NCBI GenBank assembly: GCA_003599535.1
Contig: QZKQ01000102.1
Span: 1-35,214, forward strand
Origin: Candidatus Zixiibacteriota bacterium
GTDB taxonomy: Bacteria; Electryoneota; B3-LCP
DNA length: 35,214 nucleotides
Direction of reading: 5' to 3'
The translations under genes were made by a program, and so were the position numbers. The notes below the pieces were generated by a model. It searched no databases, was not told the origin of the DNA, and was given only the letters and a program-made list of their open reading frames with translations. The number at the start of each line of letters is the position of its first letter. Position 1 is the stretch's first letter. Below are positions 2,138-23,164 of this stretch, piece after piece.

Positions 2138-2383
2138 GTTGCCGCCAGGATTGAAGCGGTTTAACGGGCGCAGAGAGCTGATCTACCGGGAGGTCACAGA
2201 CTTCCGCTCATACCGTCAGGTCGGCAAATTAGCGATTCCTGGCGGCACTCCCCTCATGCTTACCCCCGCCAGGAACCGCTTCGCCGGGGGGAGGTGGGAT
2301 GATGGGCCTGTTATCAGCTCAACACCATACTGCCGATCAGGGCTTCGATGCACATCCGGCTTCGCTTCAATCCTGGCGGGAAC
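2138..2383 (+). repeat. Nested inverted-repeat element, copy A (MITE-like)
   Basis: The element starts (2138-2158) and ends (2363-2383) with the same ~21-bp sequence in inverted orientation, differing at one position; its core is CCGCCAGGATTGAAGCG. Inside, a second inverted pair is present: AGCGATTCCTGGCGG (about 2233-2247) facing CCGCCAGGAACCGC (about 2262-2275), followed by CTTCGCCGGGGGGAGGTGGGA. The reverse complement of 22913-23164 has the same blocks in the same order, so this is one of two copies of a repeat family. No transposase is encoded and no clear target duplication is visible. It fills most of the 2012-2430 gap between the GT2 and VOC genes. Confidence 0.85.
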
Positions 2384-2836: not shown

Positions 2837-3062
2837 GTGTGGTGGCATGTTTCTGGCTCCCGACCGGGCACCCTCCTTGCTTGCCTTCAAACCTCCTGAA
2901 TCGGTCGGGAGACGAAGCGTGCAGAAGGCAGGAAAGCAGGCGGGACATGCTTCGTTTCCCGGCTGGCAACGACGCGGATCATATGCAACGATGCAGGCAG
3001 GTCGCAGAGGTGAATGCCGGCTTGTTTTCAGCCACCCGGGAACCAGAAGCATGCCACCACAC
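2837..3062. repeat. Second nested inverted-repeat element, C (different sequence family)
   Basis: Outer arms at 2837-2862 and 3037-3062 are 26 bp, inverted, with about two mismatches (core GTGTGGTGGCATG). Inner arms at 2906-2921 and 2946-2961 are 16 bp (CGGGAGACGAAGCGTG against CATGCTTCGTTTCCCG, two mismatches) around a 24-nt loop. The architecture, terminal inverted repeats plus an inner palindrome and ~230-250 bp overall, resembles elements A/B, but the sequence is not the same. It occupies nearly all of the 2797-3122 gap and creates a spurious in-frame extension of the downstream Wzi-like gene. No coding capacity is recognised. Confidence 0.78.
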
Positions 3063-3122: not shown

Positions 3123-4610
3123 ATGAATCGGGGGGTTCTGCTCTTTCTCCTGCTCCTGGGGACGGCGGCGGTCGCCGCGCCCTGGGAAACGCTCCCGCCG
3201 GATCACTGGGCCTACCCGGAGATCGGCTGGCTGCAGACGCAGGGCTACCTGCACGGCCTGAATCCGTCGGTGCAGCCGTGGACCCGGGGCGAAATCACCC
3301 GGGCGCTGCAGGCCGGACCGCGGCCGCCGGAGGGGGCCGCGTTGCGCCGCTACCAGCGGCTGGAACGCGAATTCCCGGGAATTACGCAACAGCGCGACGG
3401 CTGGCAATTCTTCGCCGGGGGGCGGCTGACCTACGGGGGGCAGGGCGCCTTCGGGCGGGATCCCCGGGGGACCGGTTCGGCGGCGCTGCAATACGGCGCC
3501 GGCAATCCCTTCCTGGGGTTCTACAGCGCCCAGCGCGGCGATCTGGACCTGGCCCGCGACCCGTACTACCAGGGCAAGAAGTGGAATGACCTGGCCGGCT
3601 TCACCGAGGCCGCCTACCTGCGCTTCACCGCGGCGCGCTGGCAGGCGACCCTGGGCCGCGATCACGTCGCCTGGGGGCCCGGGCCCGACCGCCTGCTCCT
3701 GAACGACGCGCCCCGCGGGCTGGACCAGGTCAGCTTCCAGGTGCGCTGGGAATGGGGCCGCTTCCACGCCCTGATGGGGCAGGTCAGCGACGTCACCGAC
3801 TCCGCCGGAAACCGGTCCAATCGCTTCCTTTCCGGCCACCGGCTGGAGGTGTCGCCGTGGAGCTGGCTGCGGGTGGGTCTGTCGGAAACCCTGCTCTTTT
3901 CCAGTCTGCGGCTGGGGTCGCTGAACCCCTTCCTGCCCTACTACGGCGAGTTGGTCAACGAGAATTCCGAAGGCAACGGGCTGATCAGCCTGGACGCCAA
4001 CGCCTTCTTCGCGCCGGGGTGGCAAGCATACGGGCAGCTTCTGCTGGACGACATCCAGTTGGAAAGCGAGACTTCCCTGGACAACGAACCGGCGGAATGG
4101 GGCTGGCTGGCGGGCCTGCGCTGGGCCGGAATGGACGGCCTTTTGGGCGCCGGGCTGACGTACCAGGGGGTCACCCACCGCACCTACAACGCCACGGATT
4201 CGACCTACCGCTACACCAGTTACGGCCTGCCCCTGGGCTCGGCGCTGGGCAACGACGGCGACCAGTGGCAGGTGGACGTGGCCCTGTGGCCCGCCGGCGG
4301 CCTGCGCCTGGAAGCCTTCGGGCGGTATCGCCGCCAGGGCGAAGGCCGGGTGCAGGCAGTGTTTGACACCTCCTACCTGAATTACCCGGTGGAGCTGGGG
4401 TACGATGAGCCCTTCCCCACCGGCGTGGTGGAGAAGACGACCACCCTGGGCGGGGGATTCGATTACCTGGTCAATCCCTGGATCCAGCTTCAGGGAACGC
4501 TGAACCACGCCTGGATCCGCAACTTTGGGAATCGGGACGGCGTTAAAGAAGAAGGCTGGACCGGGCGGGCCGTGGTGACGGTGAGGCTGGATAGGATCAT
4601 TACTAAGTAA
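3123..4610 (+). CDS. Capsule-assembly Wzi-family outer-membrane beta-barrel
   Basis: 495 residues. The start at 3123 is supported by AAGGAGAG immediately upstream and by a clean signal peptide (MNRGVLLFLLLLGTAAVAA, cleavage near residue 19); an upstream in-frame ATG at 2847 would run through repeat element C. After the signal comes a short helical region (DHWAYPEIGWLQTQGYLHGLNP..PWTRGEITRAL), then alternating hydrophobic strands typical of an outer-membrane barrel. Family-specific segments are GRDHVAWGPGPDRLLLNDAPRGLD, NPFLPYYGELVNE and GNGLISLDANAFF. Wzi proteins anchor or assemble capsular polysaccharide at the cell surface, which fits the sugar-nucleotide genes downstream. The last residues (RAVVTVRLDRIITK) look like a terminal beta-strand, but the final aromatic is missing, and the stop codon abuts the AT-rich inverted repeat that begins at 4609. 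The end may have been modified by that insertion. Confidence 0.85.
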   Translation: MNRGVLLFLLLLGTAAVAAPWETLPPDHWAYPEIGWLQTQGYLHGLNPSVQPWTRGEITRALQAGPRPPEGAALRRYQRLEREFPGITQQRDGWQFFAGGRLTYGGQGAFGRDPRGTGSAALQYGAGNPFLGFYSAQRGDLDLARDPYYQGKKWNDLAGFTEAAYLRFTAARWQATLGRDHVAWGPGPDRLLLNDAPRGLDQVSFQVRWEWGRFHALMGQVSDVTDSAGNRSNRFLSGHRLEVSPWSWLRVGLSETLLFSSLRLGSLNPFLPYYGELVNENSEGNGLISLDANAFFAPGWQAYGQLLLDDIQLESETSLDNEPAEWGWLAGLRWAGMDGLLGAGLTYQGVTHRTYNATDSTYRYTSYGLPLGSALGNDGDQWQVDVALWPAGGLRLEAFGRYRRQGEGRVQAVFDTSYLNYPVELGYDEPFPTGVVEKTTTLGGGFDYLVNPWIQLQGTLNHAWIRNFGNRDGVKEEGWTGRAVVTVRLDRIITK

Positions 4611-5178
4611 TTTAAAATGTAAAATTTAAAATGTAAAATGCAAAACAGCAAGGTCGACCTGGGTGAGCGGATGCTGGACTTTGCAGCAGGGATTATCCGG
4701 CTCACCACCTTGATGGAAAAGTCGTACACCGCCCGCCACATCAGTGGACAGCTGATGAGGTCGGCCACTTCCGCCGGAGCCAATTGGGAGGAAGCCGGCG
4801 GGGCGGAAAGCAGGCCGGATTTCATCCACAAGCAGCAGGTCGCCTTGAAGGAGCTGCGGGAATCTTTATTTTGGCTGCGCCTGATTGAAAAATCCGGGAT
4901 CTGTCCCCAAGAATTCCAGGACTTTGGCCGATTAAAAGATGAAGCCCGTCAGCTCACCCGGATCGTGGCCAAATCTATCATCACTTCGAAAGAAAAGCAA
5001 AAGTAAGTACCCATTATTAAATATTGCTGGTTTTGCCGGTAGAAGTCTATCTAATGGGAATAGTGGCTATTGGGATCAACAGAGCATCAGGTCTCACCGC
5101 TGCCGTGCCGAAGTCATCCATGGTTCACCCAGTCTTTTTAAATTCTAAATTTTGCATTTTACATTTTACATTGAATTT
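4611..5178. mobile_element. AT-rich inverted-repeat unit carrying a four-helix-bundle gene
   Basis: The GC-rich context is interrupted by AT-rich ends. The left end (about 4611-4645) and right end (about 5135-5178) contain a perfect 16-bp inverted pair, AAATGTAAAATGCAAA at 4629-4644 and its complement at 5151-5166, within longer imperfect A/T repeats. The start codon of the enclosed gene lies inside the left arm. Genes of this four-helix-bundle family are often found as isolated intergenic units with such AT-rich flanks, so this may be a mobilisable cassette. The mechanism is unknown and no transposase is present. Confidence 0.6.
4638..5006 (+). CDS. Four helix bundle protein (S23/Avd-like, TIGR02436 type)
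   Basis: 122 residues, nearly all helical. Family hallmarks are LGERMLDFAAGIIRLT, ARHISGQLMRSATSAGANWEEAGGAES..DFIHKQQVALKELRESLFWLRLIEKSG and a final helix. The R-S-A-T-S-A-G-A-N-x-x-E-A core is the diagnostic motif. Relatives include proteins encoded in 23S rRNA intervening sequences and the Avd accessory protein of diversity-generating retroelements; most are stand-alone with unknown function, probably oligomeric nucleic-acid-binding bundles. No reverse transcriptase or variable repeat is nearby, so a retroelement role is not supported. The ATG at 4638 lies within the left AT-rich inverted repeat; no good Shine-Dalgarno precedes it. Confidence 0.88.
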   Translation: MQNSKVDLGERMLDFAAGIIRLTTLMEKSYTARHISGQLMRSATSAGANWEEAGGAESRPDFIHKQQVALKELRESLFWLRLIEKSGICPQEFQDFGRLKDEARQLTRIVAKSIITSKEKQK

Positions 5179-22864: not shown

Positions 22865-22912
22865 TGATTCCCATCAGCACCAATTACGGTTCCCGCCAGG
22901 AATCGCTATGCT

Positions 22913-23164
22913 GTTCCCGCCAGGATTGAAGCGAAGCCGATGGTCATTTGACGCTAACCTGAGGCAGCGAAGATGCTGACGCCTCCCAAGCGTGGCTGTC
23001 CCACCGCCCCCGGCGAAGCGATTCCTGGCGGAGGTGAAGGATATCATGGGAGGTTCCCGCCAGGAATCGCTATTTTGACAGTCTGATGGAAACAGCCGGA
23101 GTTGGTGACCTTCCTGTAGCATTGGGAAGTGCACCTGAGAGCTCGCTTCAATCCTGGCGGCAAC
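22913..23164 (-). repeat. Nested inverted-repeat element, copy B (inverted relative to copy A)
   Basis: Terminal inverted repeats at 22913-22933 and 23144-23164 share the core CCGCCAGGATTGAAGCG with element A, including the same single arm mismatch (GTTG at one end, GTTC at the other). Read on the minus strand, the internal blocks follow the same order as in A: AGCGATTCCTGGCGG, then TCCGCCAGGAATCGC, then CTTCGCCGGGGG, then GGCTTCGCTTCAATCC. Outside the left end, a perfect 22-bp direct copy of an internal block recurs (22888-22909 and 23052-23073). Length 252 bp against 246 bp for A. It fills the 22865-23196 gap. Confidence 0.85.

Follow-up and report, generated by a model that had tools for sequence, protein, structure and literature searches.

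Published REPs are 20 to 65 nt long, possess short loops or a second short stem, and mostly carry GTAG or GTGG tags; the searches applied to them impose limits on loop length (PMC6006769, PMC3733652, PMC8266576). In the REP/BIME systems of E. coli and other bacteria, an imperfect hairpin is preceded by a 5′ tetranucleotide tag, REP subtypes are combined into mosaics (for instance, y with z1 or z2), and a REP-flanked RAYT gene encodes a class-2 TnpAREP transposase (PMC8266576, PMC6006769), the signature of which is an HUH motif together with Y---NP (PMC6006769). REPINs, which are associated with RAYTs in Pseudomonas fluorescens, are inverted doublets of two REPs and a spacer; they are mostly intergenic, have 71 or 110 bp between the REPs, and show conserved ends with compensatory changes and a less conserved interior (PMC3116915). 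TIRtrons and TIRYTs consist of RAYT-like genes with longer flanking inverted repeats, which can give rise to dimers and to genomic families of moderate abundance (PMC3733652).

The DNA analyzed here (the window) is a stretch of 35,214 nt that contains two copies of a ~250-bp repeat, copy A and copy B (Table 1). With a probability of roughly 0.88, this repeat is a REP doublet of the REPIN/BIME type and, as such, a non-autonomous mobile element that derives from a RAYT unit but is devoid of the RAYT itself. It shares with REP/BIME systems the tag, the imperfect hairpin, the subtype mosaics, and a REP-flanked gene for a class-2 Y---NP transposase, and with REPINs the two inverted REPs and spacer, the mostly intergenic placement, the RAYT association, and the conserved, compensated ends around a less conserved interior. 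It is therefore of a known kind, a REP doublet with a RAYT, and its departures lie in size (elements of ~250 bp, units of up to ~118 nt), in loop length (~70 to 85 nt inside each REP), in the GTTS tag (GTTG or GTTC in place of GTAG or GTGG), and in consistently unlike ends, a GTTG unit being paired with a GTTC or GTTA unit that has a different loop. The longer inverted repeats flanking a RAYT, the family size, and the dimers recall TIRtrons and TIRYTs, but the repeats described here are clearly tagged hairpins with 33-bp short-loop relatives in the same genome and in the related genome G005.

A first-pass annotation of copy A had reported near-perfect 21-bp terminal inverted repeats, an inverted pair in the interior, and a homologous element with the same block order in the opposite orientation, all of which were confirmed. 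The outer arms of copy A (2138-2158 and 2363-2383) are complementary at 20 of 21 nt (95%), and those of copy B (22913-22934 and 23143-23164) are 95% complementary as well; the inner pair lies at 2230-2245 (TAGCGATTCCTGGCGG) and 2266-2281 (CCGCCAGGAACCGCTT), and the two copies are 72% identical across the full 246 bp. Copy A folds more strongly than all of 200 dinucleotide shuffles, with z values of −4.3 (DNA energies) and −4.8 (RNA energies). The spacer of copy A, read on the minus strand (GGGTAAGCATG), is similar to the leader of the C132 RAYT described below (GGGGTAAGAATG), a likeness in sequence that is suggestive only.

Table 1. Features of the two repeat copies and of the additional RAYT/REP families (positions refer to the window unless a contig is given)
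Feature	Location	Strand	Description
Copy A composite	2138..2383	+	REPIN-like; GTTG unit facing GTTC unit
Alpha unit, copy A	2138..2245	+	Long-loop REP; tag GTTG 2138-2141, arm I 2142-2158, ~71-nt variable loop, arm J 2230-2245; same type as 21 aligned alpha units
Spacer, copy A	2246..2265	.	20 bp separating alpha and beta units
Beta unit, copy A	2266..2383	-	Long-loop REP; arm J 2266-2281, ~81-nt loop, arm I 2363-2379, tag GTTC (GAAC on +) 2380-2383
Copy B composite	22913..23164	-	Opposite orientation to copy A; beta (GTTC) unit, then alpha (GTTG) unit
Beta unit, copy B	22913..23031	+	Tag GTTC 22913-22916, arm I 22917-22933, arm J 23016-23031
Alpha unit, copy B	23057..23164	-	Arm J 23057-23072, arm I 23144-23160, tag GTTG (CAAC on +) 23161-23164
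Solitary arm J beside copy B	22893..22908	+	Probably a remnant of another unit
C111 RAYT/REP family	G000:C111:5298-6208 (L167, L193)		Tag GTTG, stem CGTCAGGTC, repeat GTTGCGTCAGGTCCTAGCCG, 33 matches
C5 family (family 3), RAYT	G000:C5:53358-53846		Repeat GGTGGCATGCTTCTGGYTCCC, 20 matches
C5-family composite	2837..3062	.	Long-loop, two unlike ends

The family was mapped by pattern searches of the 3.77-Mb assembly (G000) and by motif mapping over 41 stretches plus the window. The 17-bp terminal core (arm I) gave 29 exact matches and 47 with two or fewer mismatches, versus none for the reversed control pattern, so the inverted repeat of copy A is not due to chance; the inner motif (arm J) gave 69 matches, versus 3 for its control. 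The large genomic family predicted in the first pass is thus borne out, with more than 50 scattered units and at least 12 composite elements, and single units and half-elements are common. Each unit consists of a tag (GTT followed by G, C, or A), arm I (CCGCCAGGATTGAAGCG), a loop, and arm J (AAGCGATTCCTGGCGG), and the tag is present in all 51 mapped units (33 GTTG, 15 GTTC, 3 GTTA). The stem extends to 10 bp (GCCGCCAGGA/TCCTGGCGGC), because an additional pair joins the last base of the tag to the nucleotide that follows arm J, and is followed by a small irregular region and then the loop. Among 46 distinct units from G000 and G005, 96.5% of the stem cells are paired and 30 cells are doubly compensated, compared with 7.5 ± 2.1 after shuffling (0 of 500 shuffles were as high) and 1 to 3 at slid positions. 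The start-to-start distances between arms I and J fall into classes of 17 (the 33-bp stem-loop), 39 to 61 (small internal hairpins), 87 to 90 (alpha), 97 to 99 (beta), and 109 (mosaic). Short units (37 nt including the tag) lie within the REP size of 20 to 65 nt; long units (~108 to 118 nt) exceed it and fall outside the size and short-loop definition of a REP. The other defining features of REPs are all present, namely, a 5′ tetranucleotide at the foot of the hairpin, a covarying stem, and many dispersed, mainly intergenic copies. Outside open reading frames (ORFs) of at least 100 aa are 33 of the 51 units (65%), versus ~12% of random placements, and several of those inside ORFs sit in short, probably spurious ones, in keeping with the first description of a dispersed, non-coding, non-autonomous repeat.

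In the ~250-bp composites, the alpha unit (GTTG) and the beta unit (GTTC or GTTA) face each other across a spacer of ~20 to 30 bp, and in composites of ~165 bp a short-loop GTTC unit replaces the beta unit. This inverted doublet with a spacer, characteristic of REPINs and BIMEs, was found in 12 composites, and every one of them joins one GTTG unit with one GTTC or GTTA unit, for which we estimate a chance probability of ~0.0015.

The absence of a transposase noted earlier is correct for the element itself; for the genome it is not, since the search for a transposase with matching ends yielded a RAYT gene on contig C132. The genome contains eight Y1_Tnp sites, and the one at C132:4363-4653 falls within a cluster of family units. 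Its product (P0001, 177 aa) scores 32 bits against Y1_Tnp (cut-off, 23), passes the NCBIfam model NF047646 REP_Tyr_transpos just above the cut-off (86 versus 80), and fails the IS200 model NF033573 (19 versus 55). The sole match in a PDB search was 4er8 ("TnpArep," E. coli TnpAREP; E = 4e-4), to which the protein aligns with its HUH motif NHVH and a YMLLNP (Y-LLNP) motif. The reading frame is intact, and an alpha GTTG unit on one side and a short GTTC unit on the other face each other across the gene, ~0.7 kb in all. The 250-bp element carries ends of these same two kinds and is most simply read as this unit lacking the gene. Judged by adjacency and shared ends, the C132 RAYT is the likely mover of the family and would act on the family units in trans; a scan of genome contigs with this protein as the query returned no close relative.

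By analogy with work on TnpAREP and IS200/IS605, the elements would move through a single-strand mechanism. A strand exposed in single-stranded form, probably the lagging-strand template, would let the unit hairpins fold; the HUH-tyrosine RAYT (gene G000:C132) would then bind the stem and GTT tag of the folded unit, cleave next to the tag, and join the element at a new site without target duplication. In two near-duplicate pairs, C1:53495/C138:2148 (92% over 277 bp) and C11:7333/C49:16152 (91% over 244 bp), the homology begins exactly at the tag and the sequences just upstream are unrelated, which places the 5′ boundary of the element at the tag. The comparison of insertion sites proposed in the first pass revealed no target duplications at the flanks of any of the 12 composites. 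The elements may still be mobile today. It is unlikely that spread of the REP family by a RAYT has ceased and that recombination or gene conversion between copies is the sole remaining route of movement, with the arms homogenized by conversion. The arms are 95 to 96% identical between copies, whereas the long loops are only 43% (alpha) and 47% (beta) identical, a level that implies that many copies are old, and mosaics of two loop types, for example the unit C130:885, are also consistent with conversion; however, the intact RAYT frame and the abrupt onset of homology at the tag in the two near-duplicate pairs suggest fairly recent movement, as do the near-identical copies of family 3 at contig ends. 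Loop identity is nevertheless above the shuffled control (25 to 26%), indicating that loops of the same type share an ancestor and have kept their length while their sequence drifts.

The first-pass alternative of a structured RNA family (riboregulator, terminator, or mRNA-stabilizing element), retained for its RNA and spread only incidentally, is very unlikely. The strong folds, the mostly intergenic units, and the stems agree with it, the paired stem arms covarying across copies as the proposed covariation check required, and REPs generally are able to function at the RNA level (PMC3733652). This agreement is confined to the REP stems: a covariation scan of the loops (alpha, n = 21; family 2, n = 23) gave no column pairs above the shuffled maximum and lends no support to structured RNA beyond the hairpins, and a search of Rfam returned nothing above the gathering threshold (one chance mir-23 match, E = 0.06). 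The long loops are nearly constant in length and variable in sequence, and a loop structure is unsupported. Among the mapped units, the direction of neighboring genes has no fixed relation to unit orientation, and the GTT tag and RAYT linkage would be left unexplained. A secondary RNA role alongside mobility is possible.

The same annotation had also considered a MITE. An ordinary MITE, that is, an internal-deletion derivative of a DDE-transposase IS recognized via 21-bp terminal inverted repeats, would account for the ~250-bp length, the near-perfect terminal repeats, the lack of coding capacity, and the dispersed copies, but it is highly improbable: single units and half-elements are common, each end is a tagged hairpin whose self-complementary arms covary, the same ends bracket a RAYT gene, and the DDE type was dropped on the absence of target duplications in the 12 composites. 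What could not be named from the two copies is nameable as a REP doublet of the REPIN/BIME type, with a RAYT between the same end units on C132. The general shape of integron attC sites, a stem with a variable terminal structure, is matched by the units, whose terminal structure is of near-fixed length, but attC identity has practically no probability and was dropped on end polarity, as the composites run GTT...AAC (attC, AAC...GTT), GTTGCCG is incompatible with GTTRRRY, and the copies are dispersed and not in cassette arrays.

Two further RAYTs of the genome (C111 and C5) are each flanked by their own REP family (Table 1). In most units of the C111 family, the arm I-J distance is 72 to 78, and the loop contains a conserved motif, CGGCA..GGTGAACGG; the RAYTs of G031 and G014 are flanked by short-loop REPs starting GTTC-CGTCAGGTC, as in the C111 family. 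The C5 family has two unlike unit types, again paired, and several near-identical copies at contig ends, and it has probably been active recently, breaking the assembly. Comparison of the three families by nhmmer detected no shared loops, and the stems are also unrelated. Loops far longer than those of published REPs (20 to 65 nt in total) thus occur in three distinct RAYT/REP families of G000 and were not found in the relative G005 (Calditrichaeota DeMMO3_2, JAGVQJ01). G005 has short REP doublets with the same tag and stem, in some of which GTTG is likewise paired with GTTC, but a search of it found only 33-bp short-loop units; its C78 stretch and JAGVQJ010000187, which belongs to a Calditrichaeota MAG, have identical sequences. 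RAYTs elsewhere in the phylum often have short flanking hairpins. The Desulfobacteraceae MAG SURF_4 contains a single alpha unit that carries the same tail (L180:4292-4400); this may reflect transfer or a binning error. Single-mismatch matches in G017, G032, G036, G042, G046, and G053 were rejected as chance matches without a tag or second arm, and neither an exact-pattern scan of viral contigs nor plasmid and phage BLAST gave a match.

Most known RAYT/REP systems come from Proteobacteria, with a few other phyla represented, and the present family extends them to a Calditrichaeota-related lineage; within the paper library searched, none combined RAYT with Calditrich*. The form found here, with long variable loops, a GTTS tag, and unlike ends, would be discarded by the loop-length rule of published REP searches. 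Coexistence, within a single genome, of a RAYT unit and its identically ended RAYT-less derivative, and of three RAYT/REP families, one of which has short-loop versions in a relative, offers a natural comparison for REP origin and transposase loss. Since three families with unrelated stems and loops each keep a near-fixed loop length, variable sequence, and only short conserved motifs, we tentatively raise the doubtful but possible idea that REP hairpins in this lineage are carriers of a long terminal loop whose length is selected by a host- or RAYT-specific process. If so, the loop would either work as part of the single-stranded intermediate or provide a hypervariable slot for cargo, and no such REP system is described in PMC6006769, PMC3733652, PMC8266576, or PMC3116915.

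Two other repeats were observed. On the 3′ side of many single units (L101, L123, L127, L180, and window position ~17397) lies an independent intergenic repeat, GTCAGAATCRCNGAT..ACGGAT, followed by a GGTTCGACCCC/GGGGTCG hairpin; the GTCAGAATCRCNGAT..ACGGAT repeat also precedes some single units, which may prefer it or be embedded in it. The window additionally carries an A/T-rich inverted repeat (AATTTAAAATGTAAAATGCAAAA) at 4609-4645 and 5136-5172 that differs from the sequence around it.
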